Assembly: GCA_951812755.1 (NCBI GenBank)
Contig: OX638329.1
Coordinates: 4,658,522 to 4,722,521 of the forward strand
DNA: 64,000 nucleotides
Direction of reading: 5' to 3'
Source: an uncultured Latescibacterota bacterium
Lineage (GTDB): Bacteria; Latescibacterota; UBA2968
Shown in pieces: positions 1,004-32,507 of the stretch. A program made the translations under genes and the position numbers. How positions within the stretch are numbered: position 1 is the first letter of the stretch; each line of letters starts with the position of its first letter. The notes beneath the pieces were generated by a model. It saw only the letters and a program-made list of their open reading frames with translations, was not told the origin of the DNA and made no database searches.

Positions 1004-2659
1004 ATGATTGACGCCCTGTTACCCCTCGGTCTGCTTATTGTCGTAGGCAAGATCTTCGAGGGCGTGTTCAAACGTTTCGGCTTAAATTCAATCGTCGCCT
1101 ATACAATAACCGGCACCCTGCTCGGCCCTGTCACAAATATAATTGAACTAACGAGCGAACTGCAAACCTTCTTAGGCATCGGTATCTTTGTCTTCTTCTT
1201 TCTGGTCGGCCTTGACGAGATTGATATACCGAGCTTTGTAGCGACCCTTCGCGGGCGATTTTTTGTCGCAGCGATTGTGTCTGTGCTCATCTCACTTCTC
1301 GTCTCCATCGTCTTCACATCCAGCCTCTTCAAAATCGGGGAATTCTCCCTCAATCTCGGTTTTACAGAGGGGCTGGCTCTGGCCGGCATCCTGTCGCTGA
1401 CCAGTCTGGGACTTGTGGCAAAGGTACTCGCCGATAAAGAACATTTCAAAGAACCCATCGGCCTCGAGATATTCACTACGGTCATCATCGCCGAGTTGCT
1501 CGCCCTGCTCGTGGTCGGGTTCTCCATCGGTGAACACGACCACGAACTGAGTGTGGCCAGCGTGTTCCTTTTGCTGGTGCAAATGACGATTTTCGCAATA
1601 GTAGCCTGGTTCTTATCAACGCGGCTCCTGCCTCCTGTAATTATCTTTTTACAGCGTTTTTTGGACGTGCCCGAACTATCGTTTGGGCTACTAATCGGTG
1701 GACTTTTCTTGATGGTGGTGGGAGCCGAGAAAATCCACCTGCACGGCTCCATTGGCGCGCTGCTTTTCGGCGCTGCCCTGTCGGGTCTGCCCCGTCAGGT
1801 ACACCAAGATGTCCTGCCCGGTATGCGAAGCGCGGCAGAGGGCTTATTTGTCCCGCTCTTTTTTGCCTCGGCTGGTCTGCATCTGGATCTGTCTTTTACG
1901 ACCCTGCCAATCGCGACCATCGTCGCATTGGTCGTATTCCCATCGTTGGGCAAATTTGCCGGTGCCTTCATCGGTACCTATATAGCACGTCTGGACAATC
2001 CCCTCGCCCAGTCCACGGGGCTGATGGCAAAAGGGGTAGCGGAGATTGCCCTCCTCCTCGTCCTCTTTGAGAGCGGCGTGATCGGACAAGATGTATTCTC
2101 ACTATTCGTGCTGATGATGTTCGGCTACATTATACTTATGCCGCCAGCAATCGACTTCGCGATCACCAAAGCAAAGAAAACCCATCAACCTAAGCTACCC
2201 GACTCCGTACCGCTTTCTTTTGCCCGCCATACGATGCAGGACATTACTGTCAATCACGTCATAGACAGAACGCGTACCTATCCCAATCCAGCACTCTCGG
2301 CCAAAAACTTTGTCGATTACTGGGCCGTACCAAATCAACAGGATTACCTCGTGGTCGATAAAAATAATGTTGAAGGAGTCGTCTCGCTTCCCCGCCTGAA
2401 GGCCATGCCCTTGAAACTCAGGACAGACACGCAACTTGGCAATGTGTTGCGTACAAATTTACCACAAGCCCATCTCGATGAGCCAATTGAAGATGTGCTA
2501 ACGCGCATGGCGAATCATTCATTGTCCGTGATACCAGTCATAGATAGAGATTCAGATGAATTTCTCGGTTCAATCACGAGCGAAAATATCCTGCAACTGG
2601 CTGTCTTGATGGACGAAATCGCCGAAGAATTAAAAAAGAGAGGCGACAACATACCGTAG
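1004..2659 (+). CDS. Cation:proton antiporter (CPA2/KefB-like) with C-terminal CBS-type domain
   Basis: This is a 551-residue inner-membrane protein. Residues 1-390 are almost continuously hydrophobic and fit 11-12 transmembrane helices of the Na+/H+ exchanger (CPA2) fold, including GIFVFFFLVGLDEIDIPSF near residue 65 and the G-rich stretch LALAGILSLTSLGLVAK. The soluble tail (about 400-551) ends in a CBS-like unit (LDEPIEDVLTRMANHSLSVI, then PVIDRDSDEFLGSIT). In this family such tails sense nucleotides or gate transport. The likely role is K+ or Na+ efflux in exchange for protons. The ribosome site before the ATG is weak. Ion specificity is not predictable. The TIM-barrel gene follows 31 bases later and may be cotranscribed. 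Confidence 0.85.
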   Translation: MIDALLPLGLLIVVGKIFEGVFKRFGLNSIVAYTITGTLLGPVTNIIELTSELQTFLGIGIFVFFFLVGLDEIDIPSFVATLRGRFFVAAIVSVLISLLVSIVFTSSLFKIGEFSLNLGFTEGLALAGILSLTSLGLVAKVLADKEHFKEPIGLEIFTTVIIAELLALLVVGFSIGEHDHELSVASVFLLLVQMTIFAIVAWFLSTRLLPPVIIFLQRFLDVPELSFGLLIGGLFLMVVGAEKIHLHGSIGALLFGAALSGLPRQVHQDVLPGMRSAAEGLFVPLFFASAGLHLDLSFTTLPIATIVALVVFPSLGKFAGAFIGTYIARLDNPLAQSTGLMAKGVAEIALLLVLFESGVIGQDVFSLFVLMMFGYIILMPPAIDFAITKAKKTHQPKLPDSVPLSFARHTMQDITVNHVIDRTRTYPNPALSAKNFVDYWAVPNQQDYLVVDKNNVEGVVSLPRLKAMPLKLRTDTQLGNVLRTNLPQAHLDEPIEDVLTRMANHSLSVIPVIDRDSDEFLGSITSENILQLAVLMDEIAEELKKRGDNIP

Positions 2660-2690
2660 GTACACAAACCCAAACTGATGGAGACTGGCA

Positions 2691-3482
2691 ATGAAAATAG
2701 GGGTGACGCAAATTATCCTGGGCAAACTGACGCTGGATGAAATATTGCAATTGTGCCGTGATGCGGGTTACGAGGCACTCGAACTGGTATTTTCACCAGA
2801 AGGTGATCCAAATGTAGATATGAGTGACGACGAGGTGTGCGGTGTCAAAACGCGGTGTGACGATGCGGGTATTGAAATCAGTAGTGTGCTTGCCAGATAT
2901 GATAATCGAGGCAATTTTCTCAGCCGAGACCCAGCAGAACGCGAAGCCGGCATGAAGAGCTTGCGCCGCGCCATTGATGTGGCGCGTCTGGTCGAAACCG
3001 ATGCAGTCTTACTCCATCCGGGGCAACTCCCGGTTGACGGTACCTATGAAGACGCCTGGGATGATTTTCTGGTCTCGATGAAAGAAATCGCACCTTATGC
3101 AGAGGCAAAAAGCGTTGCAGTGGGCATAGAAAATGTGTGGAATAAGTTCTTGCTCAACCCAAAAGAAGCGCGCGAGTTTGTCGATGCCGTGGGCAACGAT
3201 TGGGTCGGGATCTATCTCGATACGGCCAATATGATGTTTTACGGCTATCCAGAGCACTGGATTCGAGGGCTACAACACCGCATTAAAAGGGTGCATTTCA
3301 AAGACTTTGTTCGTCAGCAACGCAATTTTGTACCGCTAATGGATGGGGATACGGACTGGGCAGAAATCATAAAGGGGTTGCGCGATATTGGCTATGACCG
3401 ATATGTCATCCACGAAGTAGGTGGCGACCGAGACGTGCAAATCGAGATGGCAAAACGCATGAAACAAATTGTGGCAATGTGA
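2691..3482 (+). CDS. Sugar phosphate isomerase/epimerase-like TIM barrel (AP endonuclease 2 family)
   Basis: The protein has 263 residues and starts at an ATG preceded by GGAG (ATGGAGACTGGCAATG). It opens MKIGVTQIILGKLTLDEIL and carries family landmarks: GYEALELVF in strand 2, LLHPGQLP, VGIENVWNKFL with the metal-ligand Glu, YLDTANMMFYGYPE with Asp, RVHFKDF with His, and HEVGG near the end. These are the divalent-metal ligands of xylose-isomerase-like TIM barrels. It probably isomerises or epimerises a sugar or keto-sugar in the cytoplasm. Its stop abuts the start of the dehydrogenase, and with the Gfo/Idh gene it forms a three-gene catabolic module. The exact substrate is unknown. Confidence 0.85.
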   Translation: MKIGVTQIILGKLTLDEILQLCRDAGYEALELVFSPEGDPNVDMSDDEVCGVKTRCDDAGIEISSVLARYDNRGNFLSRDPAEREAGMKSLRRAIDVARLVETDAVLLHPGQLPVDGTYEDAWDDFLVSMKEIAPYAEAKSVAVGIENVWNKFLLNPKEAREFVDAVGNDWVGIYLDTANMMFYGYPEHWIRGLQHRIKRVHFKDFVRQQRNFVPLMDGDTDWAEIIKGLRDIGYDRYVIHEVGGDRDVQIEMAKRMKQIVAM

Positions 3483-3490
3483 GGATACTA

Positions 3491-4531
3491 ATGGCAATGC
3501 GAAAAGTAGCAGCAATTGACGGCCAGGGTCGAATTTCGGTCCTTGAAGAACCGATTGCAGCCCCAAAGCCAGGCCAGGTTCAAATAGAAGTCACGGCGAG
3601 CATGGTCAGCCCCGGCACAGAATTGGGTGGGGTAAAAAGGCGACGGGAAAACCCATCAGATGCCGCACCTCGTCCATTTGGATATTCCAATGCCGGCGTG
3701 GTCGTGGCGCAAGGCGCAGGGTGTGAAGATATACCGCTTGGAACTCGCGTGGCCTGCATGGGGGGTGGATATGCCCAACATGCAACCCATGCCTGTGTGC
3801 CGCGCAATATGGCAGTGCCCATTCCCGATGGCGTCAGCGATGAAGACGCCTCGTCTATTCATCTGGTCGCAACCGCCTTAAATGCCGTGCGGCGCGGCGC
3901 ATTTCAACTCAGTGAACACATCGCCGTGGCGGGCCTGGGGCTTGTGGGACAGTTCACCTGCCAATGGGCGCGCATTTCGGGATGTTATGTGATGGGCCTG
4001 GACCAATTGCCCATGCGATTAAAAAAAGCCGCAACCTGCGGCTTGTTGCGCGGGGTCAATATCACAGAGGAAGACCCGGTTGAAGTATCTCGGACTTTTA
4101 CGCGCAGTTATGGGATCGATGGCGGTGTAATTGCTTTTGGTGGCGATGGCACGCCGGCCTTTATTACACTTAGCAAAATGATCAAAAAAGCACCCGACAC
4201 ACACTTGATGGGGCGCATTGTCATTGTGGGCGGTGCCCGAATAGAACACGGTTTTGCAGCCGCACTGGGCAATCTGGATGTACGCAGTGCTGCACGCACA
4301 GGACCGGGCTATCACGATGAGGAATGGGAACACGGCGCGGATTATCCACCCGTTTTCATGCAATGGACAACGAAGCGAAACCTGGAGGAATGTTTGCGCT
4401 TTATGGATATCGGACACTTAAAAGTAGCTCCCCTCATTACACATCGGGTTGCATTAGATGACGCACCCGAAGCATGTGAAGAACTCATCCAGAATCCCAA
4501 CGCTGCATTGGGCGTTGTATTTTTACCTTAA
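3491..4531 (+). CDS. Medium-chain (MDR) zinc-binding-type dehydrogenase
   Basis: The protein has 346 residues. The ATG at 3491 is preferred because GAGG lies 6 bases upstream; the in-frame ATG at 3479 lies inside the previous gene. The N-terminal GroES-like domain contains ASMVSPGTELGG, the SPGTE variant in which the usual catalytic-zinc Cys is absent. No four-Cys structural zinc loop is present. The Rossmann motif is VAGLGLVGQFTCQWA. Family knowledge suggests NAD(P)-dependent oxidation of a polyol or sugar. Sitting between a TIM-barrel isomerase and a Gfo/Idh enzyme supports sugar or inositol-like catabolism. The lack of the zinc Cys makes the label alcohol dehydrogenase unsafe. Confidence 0.85.
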   Translation: MAMRKVAAIDGQGRISVLEEPIAAPKPGQVQIEVTASMVSPGTELGGVKRRRENPSDAAPRPFGYSNAGVVVAQGAGCEDIPLGTRVACMGGGYAQHATHACVPRNMAVPIPDGVSDEDASSIHLVATALNAVRRGAFQLSEHIAVAGLGLVGQFTCQWARISGCYVMGLDQLPMRLKKAATCGLLRGVNITEEDPVEVSRTFTRSYGIDGGVIAFGGDGTPAFITLSKMIKKAPDTHLMGRIVIVGGARIEHGFAAALGNLDVRSAARTGPGYHDEEWEHGADYPPVFMQWTTKRNLEECLRFMDIGHLKVAPLITHRVALDDAPEACEELIQNPNAALGVVFLP

Positions 4532-4542
4532 AAGGAGTCACA

Positions 4543-5634
4543 ATGGTAGCAAAACGCTATCGCGCCGGTGCTATTGGTCGGACGGGACAGGGCAATTTTG
4601 GACATGGGCTGCATGTGCCCTATCAAAAAATCGATTGCGTGGATATGATCGCTGTGTCCGATCCAGACGCAGCCGGACGAGAAAAGGCAATTGCAGATGC
4701 TGGCGCCCAGCGAGGATATGCTGACTATCGCGACATGCTGGCAAAAGAAGACCTCGATATTGTCAGCGTGTGCCCCCGGTGGGTCGATTGTCACGAAGAA
4801 ATGATCGTAGCGTGTATCGAAGCCGGCTGCCATGTCTATTCGGAAAAACCACTTGCAAGCGACCTCGCATCCGCAGACCGCATTGTGGCTGCCGCCGAAC
4901 AGCACAATCGCAAAATTGCCGTAGCGCATCAAGCTGTTTACCTCAAACAAGTACATCAAGTGCGCGATCTAATACGAGAAAATCGAATTGGTAAACTCCT
5001 ATCCATGCATGCGTATGGCAAACAAGACCATCGGGGAGGCGGCGAAGACATGCTGGTGTTGGGAACACACCTCTTCAACATGATGCGCTTTTTGGGTGGC
5101 GATCCCCTGTGGATGACAGCGCGCGTGACAGTTGGAAACCGCGAAATCGCCCCCGAGGATGTGCGGGAAGCCACAGAGCCAATTGGCGCGATTGCGGGCG
5201 ATGGTGTGGTCAGCCTGTTTTCTTTTGACGATGGCGTGGATGGCTCATTTGTCTCGCGGGCCAATCAAGTGGGAAAAGGACAGGGCTATGGACTGGTGCT
5301 GGTCGGAGAATCTGGACGGATCGCCATAAGCGGGGGCGCAGAAGCGATTTCCATTTACGAAGATGGTCTGTGGTCACCCTGGGCAGGCAGTCAGGCATGG
5401 CGTGCGCTCGACCTTGCAGGTGATCACTTGCAGGATACGGGAAATTATCGCGCCATTATCGACCTGATTGACGCTATAGAATGCGATCGCGCACCCATTT
5501 CCAGTGATCGAGATGCGCGTTGGGCGCTGGAAATGATTCACGGGGCGTACGCATCCCAAATTTCTGGGCAGCGCGTTATTTTTCCAAACTCTGAGCGTTC
5601 TCATCCGCTCGAGAAATGGCCTTCTGGGCATTGA
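4543..5634 (+). CDS. Gfo/Idh/MocA family oxidoreductase
   Basis: The protein has 363 residues and starts at an ATG after AAAAGGAGTCACA. The N-terminal Rossmann fold has an atypical glycine loop (GAIGRTGQGNFGHG). The family signature EKP is in VYSEKPLASDLASADRI, and the usual active-site region follows (GGEDMLVLGTHLFNMMRF, carrying the conserved His). The C-terminal half is the alpha/beta substrate-binding domain. It likely catalyses NAD(P)-dependent oxidation or reduction of a sugar or a 3-keto-sugar. It lies 11 bases downstream of the dehydrogenase, so the three genes are probably one transcript. Substrate unknown. Confidence 0.87.
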   Translation: MVAKRYRAGAIGRTGQGNFGHGLHVPYQKIDCVDMIAVSDPDAAGREKAIADAGAQRGYADYRDMLAKEDLDIVSVCPRWVDCHEEMIVACIEAGCHVYSEKPLASDLASADRIVAAAEQHNRKIAVAHQAVYLKQVHQVRDLIRENRIGKLLSMHAYGKQDHRGGGEDMLVLGTHLFNMMRFLGGDPLWMTARVTVGNREIAPEDVREATEPIGAIAGDGVVSLFSFDDGVDGSFVSRANQVGKGQGYGLVLVGESGRIAISGGAEAISIYEDGLWSPWAGSQAWRALDLAGDHLQDTGNYRAIIDLIDAIECDRAPISSDRDARWALEMIHGAYASQISGQRVIFPNSERSHPLEKWPSGH

Positions 5635-5658
5635 TATGGTTGTGTTCATGCCTATAAT
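5631..5658 (+). promoter_or_regulatory. Sigma-70-type promoter for the PAC2/threonine aldolase pair
   Basis: TTGATA (5631-5636) is followed after 16 bases by a perfect TATAAT (5653-5658). The -35 overlaps the stop codon of the preceding gene, and the -10 lies 47 bases before the PAC2 start. It would separate the PAC2-ltaE pair from the sugar module. Confidence 0.6.
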
Positions 5659-5705
5659 TTGATATTATTTTTAAAACGCTTTGTCCCTTGCGGAAAGGTC
5701 ACAAC

Positions 5706-6665
5706 ATGAAACTAAACGTATTGAAAGAATTGCCCCGTTCCTTTCAGGCATCAGTACTGCTTGCCGGATGGCCGGGTATGGGCAGTGTAGGCATTGGTGC
5801 AATTGACTATATCCGGCGCAAACTCGATGCCGTCGCATTTGCAGAAATAGACATGCAATCTCACTTCACGCCCGAAGCCATGATCGTAGAAGATGGGATC
5901 GCGGCCTTTCCCGATCCGCCTGCCCATATATTTTATATGGTGGAAGAACACGACCTGATTATTTTTCAAAGCGAGGCGCAAATAGGCGGAGTCCCCGGCG
6001 ATGAATTGCTGGAAAAAGTTCTCGATGTGGGACAACGGGTCGGCATCGATACGGTCCTCTCGGGCGCGGCCTATCTCACACAGGCCAGTCACAAAGAAGA
6101 CGCACAGGTTCTGGGGGTGGCGAACAACACCAAATTTCGAGATTTACTGGCATCTCACGGGATAGAGATCTTAAAAGAAGGGATGGTCTCAGGGCTTAAT
6201 GGTCTGTTGCTGGGCTTTGCCAAAAAACGCGAACTCAATGCGGCCTGTTTTTTGGGAACCATGCCGCAATATGCTGCCCCCATTCCAAATCCCAAAGCAT
6301 CAAAAGAAATTGTGCTGGCATTGGCACATTTATTAAATTTTTCTCTCGATATGTCGGAAATTGACGACGCTGCCGAAAAGATGGAAGGCACAATGGAAGA
6401 TATTGAGATGCAAATCCAAAAGACATTTTCCCATATGGATGATATTCCAGAGAACGAATTCCCAGGCGGAAAGATCGAAGAGGATAAAGTGCCGCAGTCC
6501 GTTATGAAACGCATTGAAAAGATGTTTCGCGAAGTCAAACAAACAGATCAGTTCCAAAAAAAAGCCAATGAACTCAAAGCAGAACTGGACCGTTGGAACC
6601 TCTATTCATTTTACGAAGATCGGTTTCTAAATCTTTTCAAATCTGGCCCCGGAGAAAGCAGATAA
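5706..6665 (+). CDS. PAC2 family protein (proteasome-assembly-chaperone-like)
   Basis: The protein has 319 residues from the ATG at 5706, which follows GGAAAGG; an upstream in-frame TTG has no ribosome site. Family landmarks are VLLAGWPGMGSVGIGAIDYI near the start, the central FQSEAQIGGVPGDELLEKVL, and VSGLNGLLLGFAKKR. The last 90 residues are strongly charged and probably helical or coiled. PAC2 proteins are best known in archaea and actinobacteria. Their biochemical role in bacteria without a proteasome is not settled, and no proteasome gene is in this window. The stop TAA is directly followed by the ATG of threonine aldolase, implying translational coupling. Confidence 0.85.
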   Translation: MKLNVLKELPRSFQASVLLAGWPGMGSVGIGAIDYIRRKLDAVAFAEIDMQSHFTPEAMIVEDGIAAFPDPPAHIFYMVEEHDLIIFQSEAQIGGVPGDELLEKVLDVGQRVGIDTVLSGAAYLTQASHKEDAQVLGVANNTKFRDLLASHGIEILKEGMVSGLNGLLLGFAKKRELNAACFLGTMPQYAAPIPNPKASKEIVLALAHLLNFSLDMSEIDDAAEKMEGTMEDIEMQIQKTFSHMDDIPENEFPGGKIEEDKVPQSVMKRIEKMFREVKQTDQFQKKANELKAELDRWNLYSFYEDRFLNLFKSGPGESR

Positions 6666-25243: not shown

Positions 25244-25738
25244 ATGAAGATTCTAAAAAAAATTTGTCTCGCGCTATGCGTGTTGTTTTCTAATATGGGC
25301 ACTACCGATGCGGCATTTATCGACGGCGTAAACCTGGGTGGGGGCTTTATGTGGAACGACAGTATTCGCCAGCGTTTTGAATCAGCCGGCGGAATCGCCC
25401 TGCACGCCTCTGTCCATGCCAACCTGCCTGGTCCATTCATACTCGCACCGTTTTACGACATAAGTTTTGCCAGCCCGATGATGCATATCCTGGGCACGAG
25501 TCTCAATTATGCGATTAGCATGCGCGACGTTGAAACCCACAAGCTGTTTTTTGGGCCGAGTATTGGACTTGTACTATCGGATGGGACTTCTGGTCGTTTT
25601 ATAGGTGGGGAATTGGGATACAAATTTCCAATAGGTGAAAAACTCGGGCTATTTGCCAGGATCAAATTTGTCGAAGATCAAAATGATGTCGTCAGTGGAT
25701 TTTCCGGACATATCGGCGCGACATTCAAACTCTTTTAG
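25244..25738 (+). CDS. Small outer-membrane beta-barrel-like protein
   Basis: The protein has 164 residues with a perfect ribosome site (AAAGGAGG). Signal peptide MKILKKICLALCVLFSNMGTTDA, followed by amphipathic strands (DGVNLGGGFMWND, GPFILAPFYDISFASP, LFFGPSIGLVLSDGTS, KLGLFARIKFVED) and a C-terminal Phe (HIGATFKLF), as in BAM-inserted barrels. Resembles the barrel at 16523 in style only. Unrecognised family. It overlaps the stop of the convergent trmY-like gene by 4 bases. Confidence 0.65.
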   Translation: MKILKKICLALCVLFSNMGTTDAAFIDGVNLGGGFMWNDSIRQRFESAGGIALHASVHANLPGPFILAPFYDISFASPMMHILGTSLNYAISMRDVETHKLFFGPSIGLVLSDGTSGRFIGGELGYKFPIGEKLGLFARIKFVEDQNDVVSGFSGHIGATFKLF

Positions 25739-26343
25739 TAAATCATTTTACCAAACCCCTGCCGGTCCAACTCATTGTGTAGCAGCACAATACATTGAGA
25801 GGCAAACAACATCCGGGGCCCCACGCAAATCGGTTTGGCACCGAGGCGACGCAAATACTTAGCCGTTTTTTTGGGCATTGTGAGATGGTCTGAAAAAACA
25901 AACGTCACATCCTGAGGAAATGTCACCGTGCGAATATCAGCACCCCTGCGTTCGAGTACATAGAGCGATTCCGTGCGATCTTGCACAACGCGTTCAAATC
26001 CCTTTTTCGCCACAAAAAGACCGTTATCAACCTGTCGCTCTTCGCCCAATGACAAACCCTTGCCAGCAGATAGTGCTTTTTGCACCGCTCCTGCCAAAGT
26101 GCGTTCATCAAACCCACCCAAATAGGTCAGTTGATCGCTTTCAAAGCGCACAGTTTTCGGCGGGTCCGAAGGCCCATCAAAGACGAGATGTACAACAGTA
26201 TCGGTTCGTATATTTTGAGAATAAAAAAGCGCGTTAGCCAAACAATGCGCCACAATCTCCAATCGTCCGACCCGGCTCAGGTCATCCAGTGAAAAATCGG
26301 GTGTGGTGGGACCTTTGCGAGCGCGAAGAATAAAATTTCTCAT
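25735..26343 (-). CDS. trmY: TrmY-like tRNA (pseudouridine-54 N1)-methyltransferase
   Basis: The protein has 202 residues from the ATG at 26343, giving the family start MRNFILRARKGPTTPDFSL. Further matches are GRLEIVAHCLANALFYSQNI, HLVFDGPSDPPKTVRFES, YLGGFDERTLAGAVQKAL and the SAM-binding trefoil-knot end VTFVFSDHLTMPKKTAKYL, RRLGAKPICVGPRMLFASQC. TrmY is a SPOUT methyltransferase known mainly from archaea, where it methylates pseudouridine 54 in the T-arm, with scattered bacterial homologues. Bacteria normally have ribothymidine at this position, so its substrate here is open. There is no ribosome site; the start lies 12 bases from the divergent next gene. Confidence 0.85.
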   Translation of the reverse strand: MRNFILRARKGPTTPDFSLDDLSRVGRLEIVAHCLANALFYSQNIRTDTVVHLVFDGPSDPPKTVRFESDQLTYLGGFDERTLAGAVQKALSAGKGLSLGEERQVDNGLFVAKKGFERVVQDRTESLYVLERRGADIRTVTFPQDVTFVFSDHLTMPKKTAKYLRRLGAKPICVGPRMLFASQCIVLLHNELDRQGFGKMIY

Positions 26344-26355
26344 AAGGAGCAAGTT

Positions 26356-27099
26356 ATGAAACGCTGGGTGATCGCAATGCTGATCCTCACAACTCAGGTC
26401 AGCGCGGAAAACGAAAACAAAATGTCAACAGGGGATGGAAAAACCGATGAAATAATGGTCGAAATTCAAAAAAATGCCAGAGAAATCGCCACCTGTAAGG
26501 CCGAACAAACGACCGTTATTCGCGTTATGGACCAAGAACTGACACTCAATGCCAGCGCAACTTTTAAGCGTCCCAACCTGATGCGTCTCGACACCGTGCA
26601 AGATCAAATAATTATTTCACAACGTTTGTCTGATGGTGGCCTGATGTGGACCTATGACCGCGAAGAAAAAATCGTCTCAAAAGTGAACCTGGGGCGCGTC
26701 TATCGCGTCACCAACCTCGAAGCCGATGCAGATCAGGCCGACCCCTTGCGTCCCTTTAGAGGTCTGGAATGGACGAGCATTCGCTACACCGCAGACGAAA
26801 TATTTGAAGAACGCCCCCACCGCGTTCTTGAAGCCAAAACCAAAGTCAATCTCTTGCATGCACAACTGCCTAATCCCCCAGTCAAAGCACAATTACTCAT
26901 CAATCCCGAAGACGGCCTGTTGCGCCGGGTTGGCTTTTTTGATGCCGAAAACAATGAGATCATCACGCAGACCTTTCACAATTTGACCATCAACCCAGAT
27001 TTGGAAGACAAATGGTTTGAATTTATCGTACCAGCGGGTGCCCATGTCATTGACGCCACCGACGACGCGATACAAGCCCTCAAGACGGTAAACCAGTAG
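26356..27099 (+). CDS. LolA-like outer-membrane lipoprotein carrier
   Basis: The protein has 247 residues, with AAGGAG before the ATG. Signal peptide MKRWVIAMLILTTQVSA. The mature protein matches the LolA/LppX-like half-barrel: EIATCKAEQTTVIRVMDQEL, ASATFKRPNLMRLDTVQDQ, LMWTYDREEKIVSKVNL, AQLLINPEDGLLRRVGFFDA and ITQTFHNLTINPDLEDKWFE. LolA carries lipoproteins across the periplasm. In this divergent branch the cargo could also be another lipid. It is followed by a VanZ protein and divergent from the trmY-like gene. Confidence 0.8.
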   Translation: MKRWVIAMLILTTQVSAENENKMSTGDGKTDEIMVEIQKNAREIATCKAEQTTVIRVMDQELTLNASATFKRPNLMRLDTVQDQIIISQRLSDGGLMWTYDREEKIVSKVNLGRVYRVTNLEADADQADPLRPFRGLEWTSIRYTADEIFEERPHRVLEAKTKVNLLHAQLPNPPVKAQLLINPEDGLLRRVGFFDAENNEIITQTFHNLTINPDLEDKWFEFIVPAGAHVIDATDDAIQALKTVNQ

Positions 27100-27128: not shown

Positions 27129-27548
27129 GTGAAAAAAACCATGACAACAACGCATTGGCGCATCGCCCTGTTTGTCTGGCTACTCTTAATTTTTATTGGT
27201 TCAAGTGGCCTGCTATCGTTCGAAAATACTGAAAAAATTTTCTTTTTCAGTGAACGAATACACCAGGCGGCGCGCAAATTCGCACACATAGCAGAATATG
27301 CTATTCTGACCTATTTGTGTTTTCGGTCCCTATGGACAAAGAACCGATTTACCTCCTGTGTATTGTGGAGTGTCCTGATATCCATTCTCTATGCGATATT
27401 GGACGAATACCATCAATCCTTTGTACCCAGTCGCACCGGCACCTGGAACGATGTGGTGTGGGATGGCACAGGTGTCGCAATCATAATCCTATTATTGTGG
27501 TATGCGAAACACAGGGAAAACGGCAAAATTAGACAGTGGATTTTATAG
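27129..27548 (+). CDS. VanZ family membrane protein
   Basis: The protein has 139 residues from a GTG; an ATG at 27141 is an equally possible start, and neither has a good ribosome site. Four membrane helices: WRIALFVWLLLIFIGSSGL, KFAHIAEYAILTYLCF, CVLWSVLISILYAILDEYHQ and VAIIILLLWYAKH. The VanZ-like hallmarks are K-HxxEY in helix 2, DEYHQSFVPSRTGTWNDVVW, and the Asp after it. VanZ-like proteins affect glycopeptide tolerance in enterococci, but in most bacteria the role is unknown. It lies 29 bases after the LolA-like gene. Confidence 0.88.
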   Translation: MKKTMTTTHWRIALFVWLLLIFIGSSGLLSFENTEKIFFFSERIHQAARKFAHIAEYAILTYLCFRSLWTKNRFTSCVLWSVLISILYAILDEYHQSFVPSRTGTWNDVVWDGTGVAIIILLLWYAKHRENGKIRQWIL

Positions 27549-27570
27549 ACTATTTAACGGGATACTTGCC

Positions 27571-28875
27571 ATGACCAAATCTGGAAAAATTGAAAAGCCC
27601 AATATCCTCTTCATCCTCGCCGACGACATGGGCTGGGGTGACGTCAGCTATCACGGCTCACACATTCGCACACCCAATATCGACCGCCTCGCAGCCACGG
27701 GAATCGAACTCGACCAGCATTACGTCTGCCCTATGTGTACTCCCACCCGCACATGTCTCCTAACGGGCCGCCATCCCGGTCGCTTTGGACGCCACGCTAC
27801 CGTCCCCTCCAACGCGCCCGTCCTCCCAGATGGGTATGAAACACTGGCCTCATCCTTCCGCAATGCGGGATACGAAACCGGTCTTTTTGGAAAATGGCAT
27901 CTGGGATCCTCTCCCGAATACGGTCCCAACCAATTTGGTTTCAACACCAGCTATGGGAGCCTGGCCGGCGGCGTTGACCCGTATAACCATCGCTACAAAT
28001 CAGGCCCCTACAGCGTCACCTGGCACCGCAATGGCGAACTCGTCGAAGAGCGCGGCCATGTCACCGACCTCATCGCTCGTGAAGCCACCCAGTGGATTGA
28101 AACGCAAACAGCTCCATGGTTTTGCTATGTCCCTTTCACCGCTGTTCACACCCCCATCAAAGCTCCACAACACTGGATAGACCGCTATTCAGACCGGCGC
28201 TACGATCCCGACGACAACAAAGACCGCTCATTCAAAACCTATGCCGCCTACGCCAGCCAGATGGATCACGCCATCGGTCAACTCGTCGAAACCCTTGCCC
28301 GTACCTGCCAGCGTGAAAACACCATCATCATCTTCTCATCGGACAACGGCGCCATCCCTGCTGGCCCACTTCACGACACGGACAAATACGAAGAAATGCC
28401 GCGTCTGGGCTGCAATTTGCCCCTACGAGGTCAAAAATCTCAACTCTACGAAGGCGGTATCCGCACCCCTTCTCTGATCAATTGGCCTTTTCATCTGCAA
28501 CCCGGCAAATGCTTTCACCCCCTGCACATAACCGATTGGATGCCAACCCTGACCAATCTCATCCGGTACACGCCCAACAGCGATCCCCAATGGGATGGTC
28601 AAGACATCTGGCCCCTGCTCACAGGCGACATCACCATACCCGAAGAACGGTCTATCTTCTGGAACTTTAGAGGCTCGTCCTTTGGCATGCGAACGGGCAA
28701 TTGGAAATTGATCTACGAAGAAGGCCAAACCCCCGAAGAAACCAAACTATTTCACATCGGCTCCGATCCTTATGAAACGACAAATGTAGCATCCACGCAA
28801 GCCGACCGCGTACATCAAATGCTCGAACACATTGCCGACGAGCGAAAACGAGACAACAGTTCAATAAGAAATTAA
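27571..28875 (+). CDS. Type I arylsulfatase-like sulfatase, no signal peptide
   Basis: The protein has 434 residues from the ATG at 27571; upstream codons belong to the VanZ tail. All core motifs are present: ILADDMGWGDVSYHG (metal), formylglycine motif CTPTR in YVCPMCTPTRTCLLTGRHPG, GKWHLGSSPEYGPN with active-site Lys and His, FSSDNGAIPAGP (metal), and LRGQKSQLYEGGIRTP with its Lys. This is closest to the arylsulfatase A/B style. The missing signal peptide points to the cytoplasm. A second sulfatase follows after 17 bases. Substrate is probably a sulfated sugar. Confidence 0.9.
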   Translation: MTKSGKIEKPNILFILADDMGWGDVSYHGSHIRTPNIDRLAATGIELDQHYVCPMCTPTRTCLLTGRHPGRFGRHATVPSNAPVLPDGYETLASSFRNAGYETGLFGKWHLGSSPEYGPNQFGFNTSYGSLAGGVDPYNHRYKSGPYSVTWHRNGELVEERGHVTDLIAREATQWIETQTAPWFCYVPFTAVHTPIKAPQHWIDRYSDRRYDPDDNKDRSFKTYAAYASQMDHAIGQLVETLARTCQRENTIIIFSSDNGAIPAGPLHDTDKYEEMPRLGCNLPLRGQKSQLYEGGIRTPSLINWPFHLQPGKCFHPLHITDWMPTLTNLIRYTPNSDPQWDGQDIWPLLTGDITIPEERSIFWNFRGSSFGMRTGNWKLIYEEGQTPEETKLFHIGSDPYETTNVASTQADRVHQMLEHIADERKRDNSSIRN

Positions 28876-28892
28876 AAGGAGATCTTAATCTT

Positions 28893-30212
28893 ATGTCCCA
28901 TCGCAACGTCCTCTTACTCATTGCCGACGACTGGAGTCCCATTGCCGGATGTTATGGCAACGACGTCATCAAAATGCCCAGCGTAGATGCACTTGCCGCG
29001 CGGGGCACCTTATTTAAGCATGCCTTTTGCACCACCCCATCGTGTGCAGCCAGCCGCGCCAACCTGCTCACCGGTCACTACAGCCACACGCACGGGCAAT
29101 ACGGCCACTCACACAGCATCCACAATTTCCACACGCAACTCAACATGCCGTCAATACCCAAAACCCTACAATCCGCCGGATTCACAACTGGCGTTGTCGG
29201 CAAACTCCACGTCCAACCCGAATCTGTCTATCCCTGGAACTACGAAGTCGGTGGTGGGCGCAATGTGCGCGGTATTGCAGACAACATTGCAAAATTCTTT
29301 GAAACCATTGATAGCGATCGGCCATTCTATCTGCACGTCGGTTATTCCGATCCCCACCGTGACTTCGGCAACAAACAAACCTATCCCGGTGTTCCCGAAG
29401 TCACGTATTCCCCCGACGAAGTCATCGTCCCCGATTTTCTGCCCGACCATCCAGACGTGCGACGAGAATTTGCCGAATACTACCAATCCGTCTCTCGCCT
29501 CGACACCGGCATAGGCATGGCCGTGCAGGCACTTCAAGACGCTGGCCGTGCCGACGATACCATGATCATTGTCATGAGCGACCACGGCATGCCCTTTCCC
29601 GGCGGCAAAGCCTCTTCTTTTGACACGGGCCATCACTGTCCACTCATCATTGCGCGCCCAAATGCCGAAGCCGTTGTCAGCGACGCCCTCGTCAACTGGA
29701 ACAACATCGCCCCCACCGTCTTTGAATGGTGCGGCGTTGAACCCCCCGAAGATTTGCCCGAAAAATCCCTGGTCTCCATCCTCGAAGAGGCACATCCCGA
29801 GGGATTTGACGAAACCTTCTTTTCCCACACCTTCCACGAAGTCACCAACTACTATCCCTACCGGGTACTGCGCGGGCGCAAATACAAATACGTGCGAAAT
29901 CTCTATCCCGAAATCACCACCCCTTTGCCCAGTGACCTGTGGGCATCGCCTACCTGGCAGGCCATCCGCAGAGAAAATTTGGAAATGGGCAACCGCCGCA
30001 CGGAAAAATTTCTGCACCAGGATGCCGAAGCCCTATTCGACATTGAAAACGATCCCATGGAATCCACCAACATCATCGACGATCCCGCGGTTCAGGACAT
30101 CGCCGAAGCCATGCGGCAAAAAGTTCGCACCTTCCGCAAAGAAACCCGAGACCCCTGGTGCCTGGCGTCCTATCACGCGGGTGAACCGGGTATGGAACCT
30201 GGCGTAACGTGA
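28893..30212 (+). CDS. Type I sulfatase (heparan N-sulfatase/sulfamidase-like), no signal peptide
   Basis: The protein has 439 residues, with AAAAGGAG upstream. Motifs are LLIADDWSPIAGCYGND, formylglycine motif CAASR in TTPSCAASRANLLTGHYSH, VVGKLHVQPESVYPWNY with Lys and His, and VMSDHGMPFPGGK. The ADDWSP opening and the GKLHV form resemble the N-sulfoglucosamine sulfohydrolase branch, suggesting removal of N- or O-sulfate from an amino sugar, but this is only a likeness. No signal peptide. It forms a pair with the preceding sulfatase and is ended by the terminator at 30241. Confidence 0.88.
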   Translation: MSHRNVLLLIADDWSPIAGCYGNDVIKMPSVDALAARGTLFKHAFCTTPSCAASRANLLTGHYSHTHGQYGHSHSIHNFHTQLNMPSIPKTLQSAGFTTGVVGKLHVQPESVYPWNYEVGGGRNVRGIADNIAKFFETIDSDRPFYLHVGYSDPHRDFGNKQTYPGVPEVTYSPDEVIVPDFLPDHPDVRREFAEYYQSVSRLDTGIGMAVQALQDAGRADDTMIIVMSDHGMPFPGGKASSFDTGHHCPLIIARPNAEAVVSDALVNWNNIAPTVFEWCGVEPPEDLPEKSLVSILEEAHPEGFDETFFSHTFHEVTNYYPYRVLRGRKYKYVRNLYPEITTPLPSDLWASPTWQAIRRENLEMGNRRTEKFLHQDAEALFDIENDPMESTNIIDDPAVQDIAEAMRQKVRTFRKETRDPWCLASYHAGEPGMEPGVT

Positions 30213-30240
30213 TCGCCCCTTCCCCTTCATACAACCAAAC

Positions 30241-30272
30241 AACCCCCGCCTGAGCATTCCTGACGGGGGTTT
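30241..30272. terminator. Intrinsic terminator after the sulfatase pair
   Basis: AACCCCCG, loop CCTGAGCATTCCTGA, CGGGGGTTT, then TGCTTTTA. GC-rich stem with a modest T-run on the plus strand. Confidence 0.75.
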
Positions 30273-30302
30273 GCTTTTATTCATTCAAAGACAGAGCAAT
30301 AA

Positions 30303-30544
30303 CTAAAAATTATAAATCAAACTCAGATCAATGAAACTATCGCGTATCGTAGTGGATATCCGCTTGATCAATACTGAGAAGGTGAATCGCCTCTATATTC
30401 AGAGACAACTGGTCAGAGATACGCCGGTCCAATTCGACAGATAGTGCATGCGTGGCGCGCTCCGAATCTCCCAGAATACTGGCGACAATCTCAGTGCTCT
30501 GAACATCGTTGAACGCAATATTATGTGCCTTTGAAGAATTTCAT
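30303..30544 (-). pseudogene. Frameshifted remnant of an outer-membrane barrel protein
   Basis: An ATG at 30544 with GAGAAGG 7 bases upstream opens MKFFKGT and stops. Shifting one base gives KAHNIAFNDVQSTEI, then a long open stretch ending SLNIEAIHLLSIDQADIHYD. A second one-base shift then gives SFIDLSLIYNF and a stop. Alternating strand pattern and a terminal Phe are the marks of an outer-membrane barrel. The likeliest reading is a gene reduced to its start and last strands, with two frameshifts. It sits 12 bases after the EVE gene on the same strand. Nothing else is seen in 30273-30556. Confidence 0.5.
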
Positions 30545-30556
30545 TTTTTTGCCTTC

Positions 30557-31036
30557 TCATCTCGCCAAATGTCCTCCCATCTCACACACAATATCAAACT
30601 CCCCCTTTGTCACCGGCTGAATTGATAACCGCTGTCCGCGCTGAACCACCTTCATATCTTTGAGCTTGGGATTGTTCTTGAGGTCTTGCAGGCTAACATA
30701 AGGCTCAAATGCTTTCGACCACTGCACATCAAAAGAAAACCAGCGTGGATCTTCTTTCGAGGCCTTCTCGTCGTAGTACTCATGCTGCGCATCGAATTGT
30801 GATGGATCGGGATACCCCGCACGCACAATATTGGCAATACCAGCAATACCGGGATCTTTACAATTCGACTGATAGAAAAGCGTCTGATCGCCTTTTTGCA
30901 TTTCGTCGCGGATAAAATTGCGCGCCTGATAATTGCGCACCCCTCGCCAGTACCCAATGCCACTGGGCCGATTGCTCAACTCTTCAAAAGAGCACACATC
31001 GTACTCGCACTTTACAAGCCAGTATTTTTGGGCCAT
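30557..31036 (-). CDS. EVE domain protein
   Basis: The protein has 159 residues, with GAGGATGCT before the ATG. It is a single EVE (PUA-like) domain: KYWLVKCEYDVCSFEEL, WRGVRNYQARNFIRDEMQKG, QTLFYQSNCKDPGIAGIANI, DPRWFSFDVQWSKAFEPYVS and FDIVCEMGG. EVE domains bind modified bases in DNA or RNA; stand-alone bacterial members are of unsettled role. It lies 13 bases downstream of the sulfatase stop on the same strand, so probably shares its transcript. Confidence 0.9.
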   Translation of the reverse strand: MAQKYWLVKCEYDVCSFEELSNRPSGIGYWRGVRNYQARNFIRDEMQKGDQTLFYQSNCKDPGIAGIANIVRAGYPDPSQFDAQHEYYDEKASKEDPRWFSFDVQWSKAFEPYVSLQDLKNNPKLKDMKVVQRGQRLSIQPVTKGEFDIVCEMGGHLAR

Positions 31037-31049
31037 AGCATCCTCACAA

Positions 31050-32507
31050 TTATTGTGCGGCGTCTTTCCATTTCTGATAATTTGGCGACAGGCTCAGCGC
31101 GCCATCTACCTGTGGCACGAGTTCCCCATTTTGTCCCCTCGGATCGCCCCGGTTTTCATTCACCTCTGCCAATCGCCTGCGCCACATCGCAATACGCGCT
31201 TCATAAGCCGGGTCTTGGGACAGTTCGCAGCATTCCAACGGATCGTCATCCAGATTAAAAAACTGTTCTTTTCCCGTGTGATGAAACCAGATATACTTCT
31301 CGTGCCCATCGGTGACATATTGCATACCGTGTTCTCTTGTATAACACGACGTATGCTCGCCCTGCACAAACGCGCGCCATCCCTCATCATCCCCCCGCGC
31401 AATATCCAGAAGAGACCGTCCATCCACGGACTCTGGTATATCGACCCCAGCAGCATCGAGCAATGTGGGCATCACATCGCGCAACTCCACTGGGTGGTCA
31501 TACTTTTCCCCTCGCGCCACATCGCGCCAGGTATCGGGATATTTCACAATAAACGGAATGCGCGCAGACCCTTCATACGCATACGTCTTCCGCCAGTGGT
31601 GATGATCGCCCATCATATCGCCGTGATCAGATGTAAAAATAATCAGGGTATTACTGTATGTGTGCGGGTCGTGGCGGCGCAACTCGTACAGCACGCGCCC
31701 AATCTGGTGATCAATAAAAGTGATATTGCCGTAATATCCCGCCCGCCCCCTGTGTGTTTCAACATCGGAACGGTGCGAACGCGGCGCATTGACATCTGCG
31801 ATTTTTTTGTCAAACTCCCCTGCCCAATCTCCCACAGCGGCTTTGGGAATATTGTCATTATTGATATACATATCCCAATACGCCTGAGGCGCATCATAAG
31901 GCGAATGGGGCCGCGCAAATGAAAGCCACATAAAAAACGGTTTGGTCGGGTCGCGCTGCTGCAAAAATTTAATCCCCTCGCTCGCCGTCCAGTGCGTCGG
32001 ATGCAAATGCTCGGGCAAATGGCTGGGGCGCGCCATCCATGAATTCCAATCGATACTGTGATCTCGATACCCGTAAGCACCTTCCTTGTGCTGCTCGAAA
32101 AACAGGTGATAATCGCTGATAAAATTGCCCACTCGCCGTCCACTCTCATCCAGCACCATGTGGTGAAAACCGTATAGCCTGCGCTGCGGGGCATGGTGCA
32201 TCTTGCCCACAGCCTGCGTGTGATATCCCGCCGCTGCAAGTTCCCCCGGCAATGTCGCCGGATATTCCAGCGGATGGCTTCCCGTCATTGTCAACCGCCC
32301 GTGATTCCATTGATCCATCCCCGTGATAATCCCCGCGCGTGCAGGCGTACACGACGGCACCGATGTATATGCGTGGGGGAAATGTGCCCCTCGCTCGGCC
32401 AATTCATCGAGATATGGCGTCTCCAGCGCCGGATGCCCATCACAGCCGAGGCAATCACCACGCTGTTGGTCTGTCGTAATCAACAACAAATTTGGTCGCT
32501 CTGACAT
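31050..32507 (-). CDS. Type I sulfatase, no signal peptide
   Basis: The protein has 485 residues, with AAAAGGATAC upstream. Motifs are LLITTDQQRGDCLGCDGHP, formylglycine motif CTPAR in SVPSCTPARAGIITGMD, AVGKMHHAPQRRLYGFHH with Lys and His, FTSDHGDMMGDHHHWRKTY and SARIPFIVKYP. The TTDQQRGD and GDHHHWRK forms place it in a common bacterial subgroup often annotated arylsulfatase or choline-sulfatase-like. No signal peptide. The EVE gene follows. Substrate unknown. Confidence 0.9.
   Translation of the reverse strand: MSERPNLLLITTDQQRGDCLGCDGHPALETPYLDELAERGAHFPHAYTSVPSCTPARAGIITGMDQWNHGRLTMTGSHPLEYPATLPGELAAAGYHTQAVGKMHHAPQRRLYGFHHMVLDESGRRVGNFISDYHLFFEQHKEGAYGYRDHSIDWNSWMARPSHLPEHLHPTHWTASEGIKFLQQRDPTKPFFMWLSFARPHSPYDAPQAYWDMYINNDNIPKAAVGDWAGEFDKKIADVNAPRSHRSDVETHRGRAGYYGNITFIDHQIGRVLYELRRHDPHTYSNTLIIFTSDHGDMMGDHHHWRKTYAYEGSARIPFIVKYPDTWRDVARGEKYDHPVELRDVMPTLLDAAGVDIPESVDGRSLLDIARGDDEGWRAFVQGEHTSCYTREHGMQYVTDGHEKYIWFHHTGKEQFFNLDDDPLECCELSQDPAYEARIAMWRRRLAEVNENRGDPRGQNGELVPQVDGALSLSPNYQKWKDAAQ

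Follow-up and report, generated by a model that had tools for sequence, protein, structure and literature searches.

The window analysed here, a stretch of 64,000 nucleotides from a Latescibacterota genome, carries a real, conserved and previously recognised kind of bacterial gene, trmY, the product of which is probably a working bacterial TrmY that N1-methylates a pseudouridine which a standard bacterial synthase has placed in structured RNA. By residue comparison, the copies found in this phylum resemble the archaeal enzyme more than the Vibrio form does, and the host genome lacks any known m5U54 enzyme.

The trmY product is a genuine TrmY-family protein

The gene and its immediate surroundings are arranged as follows.

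25244..25738, plus strand: small convergent gene with no family match, overlapping trmY by 4 bp at its stop codon; neighbour only
25735..26343, minus strand: trmY (COG1901/PF04013), a 202 aa SPOUT methyltransferase of the bacterial clade of the family
26344..26355, no strand: intergenic gap of 12 bp separating trmY from the LolA-like gene, the two starts being divergent
26356..27099, plus strand: LolA-like protein (score below cut-off), divergent neighbour; neighbour only

The trmY frame opens with an ATG at 26343 and closes with a stop codon at 25737..25735, and an alternative in-frame TTG start lies at 26352. The frame scored 210.1 bits against the NF002560 ‘TrmY’ profile (equivalog cut-off 183), with residues 1-197 aligned to profile positions 1-199 of 200, and matched PF04013 end to end with 188.1 bits (cut-off 25.5). 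The end-to-end match claimed in an earlier, sequence-only reading of this DNA is therefore borne out, and the motifs quoted in that reading are present in the frame. No family besides TrmY was matched by the frame in profile searches, and Nep1/Emg1 gave no sequence match. Among relatives of solved structure, Vibrio cholerae VCA1059 (2qwv) scored highest by sequence, at 159.7 bits, followed by AF1056 (118) and MJ1640 (100). Moreover, an example pair of same-genus trmY copies differed by 42 synonymous and 6 non-synonymous codon changes of 196. Such mostly synonymous differences within the genus indicate that purifying selection acts on trmY and that the frame has not arisen by chance. The frame is thus a genuine member of the TrmY family.

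An AlphaFold model of the trmY product, built from 30 relatives, gave a pLDDT of 89 and a pTM of 0.88, with the C-terminal SPOUT fold predicted at high confidence. When the model was compared with the PDB, the first five matches were all TrmY-family chains (E about 1e-20), headed by V. cholerae VCA1059, and Nep1 came after them (E 3e-6). Superposition of the model on TrmY crystal structures returned TM values of 0.86-0.92. The predicted SPOUT knot fold is nearest to TrmY structures, and the assignment to TrmY rather than to another SPOUT family stands, as there is no rival by sequence and Nep1 is a distant second by structure.

The trmY/LolA-like adjacency is conserved in both of the class's closest families. 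An operon partner was rejected because trmY has different neighbours in different families, most of them envelope genes; across the families whose loci were compared, RNA-modification genes are not the usual neighbours. In one Latescibacterota genus trmY ends a tol-pal-cpoB cluster and is co-directional with it (loci L077-L081, about 1400-6600), and in marine gammaproteobacterial MAGs it is convergent and follows queE-queC (loci L085-L090). Elsewhere in the window, at 27502-32507, three sulfatase-looking genes, judged by eye, lie within 5 kb.

Distribution of bacterial TrmY

Relatives with names place the bacterial host, which has a genome of 6.53 Mb in a single contig, in the Latescibacterota; some records of these relatives carry the label Gemmatimonadota. 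PF04013 was found in 25 of 64 Latescibacterota genomes, confined to one class and to three families of that class. Within the host genus it was present in 10 of 11 genomes and was absent from G038, a complete single-contig genome. This patchy presence, together with the absence from a genome of the same genus, shows that trmY is dispensable.

Beyond the phylum, 252 related stretches were confirmed in GTDB genomes, and the best 80 of the 252 are nearly all bacterial. The best relatives outside the Latescibacterota belong to the Gammaproteobacteria (Vibrio, Photobacterium, Shewanella, Lysobacter, Luteimonas, Dyella, Alcanivorax and marine MAGs). When 258 genomes were drawn evenly from that class, TrmY was present in two, one of which was the carrier on which the draw was centred. 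The gene is also found on the conjugative Vibrio plasmid pVS127, the record of which names it TrmY; on this MOBH plasmid of Vibrio scophthalmi it adjoins a recX gene (locus 5493-6597). A phage origin was rejected, there being no match in phage records or viral contigs. The 0.8 Mb archaeal genome G424 contains two TrmY-family matches.

Given this number of bacterial stretches and a closest solved structure that comes from V. cholerae, the view that the mere occurrence of TrmY in a bacterium is remarkable is not supported. Bacterial TrmY is not new: COG1901 proteins in bacteria have been known since 2007, and RefSeq gives them the name TrmY. The 2007 study noted that bacteria have members of this group, perhaps transferred from archaea, and suggested m1-pseudouridine as a product (PMC1829167). 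A 2016 review listed the bacterial form as a ‘bacterial unknown methylase’ (PMC5041015), and another review restricted the TrmY family to archaea (PMC5372735), a statement that is contradicted by the bacterial relatives found here. No assay of any bacterial TrmY member was found in the literature searched.

Phylogeny and conserved residues

A tree of 74 rows was constructed, comprising 32 archaeal rows, drawn mostly from one small-genome phylum together with MJ1640 and AF1056, and 42 bacterial rows. The branch dividing the archaeal from the bacterial rows had a support of 100/99. The gammaproteobacterial rows clustered together (97/79); beside them stood the Latescibacterota rows, in no single resolved group. 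Recent archaeal transfer into the host genus was rejected, since no archaeal row fell within the bacterial side of the tree.

Residues G134, D152, A181, L192 and D193 are common to both domains, and H153, C184 and H189 are conserved throughout the bacterial copies. Taken as a whole, the bacterial copies are set apart from the archaeal ones by residue 29 and by a G inserted at residue 77, among other positions. A further set, G26, G57, P61, P62, K113 and D136, is common to the Latescibacterota and the archaea and is replaced in the Vibrio/Lysobacter type.

Partner and competing enzymes

Archaeal TrmY works on pseudouridine 54 after Pus10 and also accepts the isolated T-arm (PMC9508554, PMC7912444). 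The sequence-only reading had proposed looking for a Pus10- or TruB-like partner and for TrmA or TrmFO, and had named a changed T-arm as one possible implication. No Pus10 was found in the host genome, where the best TIGR01213 match reached 13.8 bits (E 0.047; cut-off 200) and archaeal controls were positive. A TruB is present, in single copy, as are RluA/RsuA-type synthases. A dedicated pseudouridine synthase was rejected, because TruB is single and PF00849 counts, taken as number of proteins, are equal with and without TrmY: the draft carrier genomes G024 and G056 have two each, the same as the TrmY-less genomes of genus g11.

TrmFO was likewise not found in the host genome: the only TIGR00137 match was a 632-aa frame of MnmG size at 54.8 bits (cut-off 428.65), controls behaved as expected, and none of the 64 Latescibacterota genomes reached the cut-off. 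No TrmA-family (PF05958) protein was found in the host genome (G000) or in 10 same-genus genomes, which implies that no m5U methyltransferase of the RlmD, RlmC or TrmA type is present in this genus. Most other Latescibacterota genomes have one or two PF05958 proteins, which score at most 106 bits; the TrmA proteins of Vibrio, Shewanella and others reach 500-600. NCBIfam identifies three PF05958 proteins taken from TrmY carriers as RlmD, and in some relatives a second RlmD-like copy could serve position 54. PF05958 is absent from 10 of 25 TrmY carriers as against 3 of 22 non-carriers of the class (p=0.056), the 10 all belonging to one genus. The idea that TrmY and m5U methyltransferases exclude each other was rejected, as the association is confined to that genus and is gone once it is removed. 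The sister genome G038 has neither TrmY nor m5U enzymes. Outside the phylum, the 30 sampled carriers of TrmY, 29 of them bacteria and one an archaeon, all have a PF05958 protein, which in nine of them is or includes a full-length TrmA.

In 0.8 Mb of the host genome four tRNA genes were found, and all four have ordinary TTCRA T-loops with U54-U55-C56 present. There is thus no sign of a changed T-arm in these genes, and that part of the sequence-only reading is not supported.

Proposed function

The chemistry of the archaeal enzyme, taken with the C-terminal residues common to both, leads us to infer that m1-pseudouridine is the product. A standard synthase (TruB, TruA or an RluD- or RsuA-type enzyme) would first make pseudouridine in a structured RNA, and the SAM-dependent SPOUT protein TrmY would then methylate N1 of that pseudouridine. 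As no special synthase is seen alongside TrmY, a synthase near-ubiquitous among these bacteria would be the most economical source of the pseudouridine. Family and fold, the residues common to both domains and those kept in all bacteria, purifying selection, the presence in three families of the class, the single TruB and RluA/RsuA-type synthases and the canonical T-loops speak for this reading. The missing pseudouridine-54 synthase, the patchy presence and the mainly envelope-related neighbours speak against it. The tRNA T-loop is one possible target in the Latescibacterota.

A more specific proposal is that a bacterial synthase makes pseudouridine 54 and that TrmY converts it to m1-pseudouridine, so that an archaeal-style T-loop replaces ribothymidine. 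The lack of TrmFO and PF05958 proteins in the host genome and genus would fit this, as would the archaeal residues G57, P61, P62, K113 and D136 retained in the Latescibacterota copies and the U54-U55-C56 of the tRNAs found. However, with no Pus10, one TruB, no extra synthase tracking TrmY by count, a sister genome (G038) devoid of both TrmY and m5U enzymes, and a TrmY/PF05958 association that is lost outside one genus, this assignment is unlikely. In a second narrower version, for which the chances are about even, the bacterial clade was re-targeted to a site other than 54, be it a different pseudouridine in tRNA or rRNA or a different base. This is suggested by the full-length TrmA in 9 of the 30 sampled non-Latescibacterota carriers, by the 100/99 split between the domains and by the bacterial differences at residue 29, residue 77 and other positions. 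In V. cholerae, T54 in nearly all tRNAs is made by TrmA, in a paper that does not mention TrmY (PMC12588516), which means that U54 is already taken there. The Latescibacterota copies, however, are nearer than those of Vibrio to the archaeal type, so the Vibrio situation need not apply to them.

It is also conceivable, although decidedly improbable, that trmY is an acquired gene without a settled role that is heading for loss. Its patchy presence and its mobility in Vibrio on pVS127 are compatible with such a fate, and a Photobacterium damselae clone is viable despite a 26-kb deletion that includes trmY (PMC10441182). Against this, the gene is under purifying selection in the genus and is carried by three families of the class, and no archaeal row falls within the bacterial side of the tree.

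The reading preferred here, methylation of a pseudouridine supplied by an ordinary synthase, bears on the bacterial branch of COG1901, for which a crystal structure dates from 2007 but the literature searched still gives no substrate. What the present analysis adds is a Latescibacterota form that is closer than its Vibrio counterpart to the archaeal enzyme, in genomes without a known m5U54 enzyme. Such a form, with no competing m5U54 enzyme in its genomes, offers a cleaner test case for bacterial m1-pseudouridine 54; if that modification is indeed made, TrmY would give the Latescibacterota m1-pseudouridine 54 in place of ribothymidine.

Comparison with known systems

Nep1/Emg1, the small-subunit rRNA N1-pseudouridine methyltransferase, has the same chemistry and the SPOUT fold, but differs from the host TrmY in structure (TM 0.5-0.65) and sequence (10-15% identity). 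Archaeal TrmY (MJ1640, AF1056) is closer, sharing the NF002560 profile above the equivalog cut-off and the residues of the catalytic half, and the archaeal structures 3ai9, 3aia and 2qmm superpose on the host model with TM 0.88-0.92. Identity to the archaeal proteins is nevertheless 33-35%, the Pus10 partner is missing in the host, the 100/99 branch lies between them and the host copy has the inserted G77. The VCA1059-type bacterial COG1901 protein of V. cholerae (2qwv) is of the same full-length family, has the same fold (TM 0.86) and stands on the same side of the tree, and gammaproteobacterial members share about 37-47% identity with the host TrmY. The Vibrio/Lysobacter type, however, sits on a long branch without the G26, G57, P61, P62 and K113 kept in the host copy, and TrmA is present in Vibrio whereas it is absent from the Latescibacterota host.
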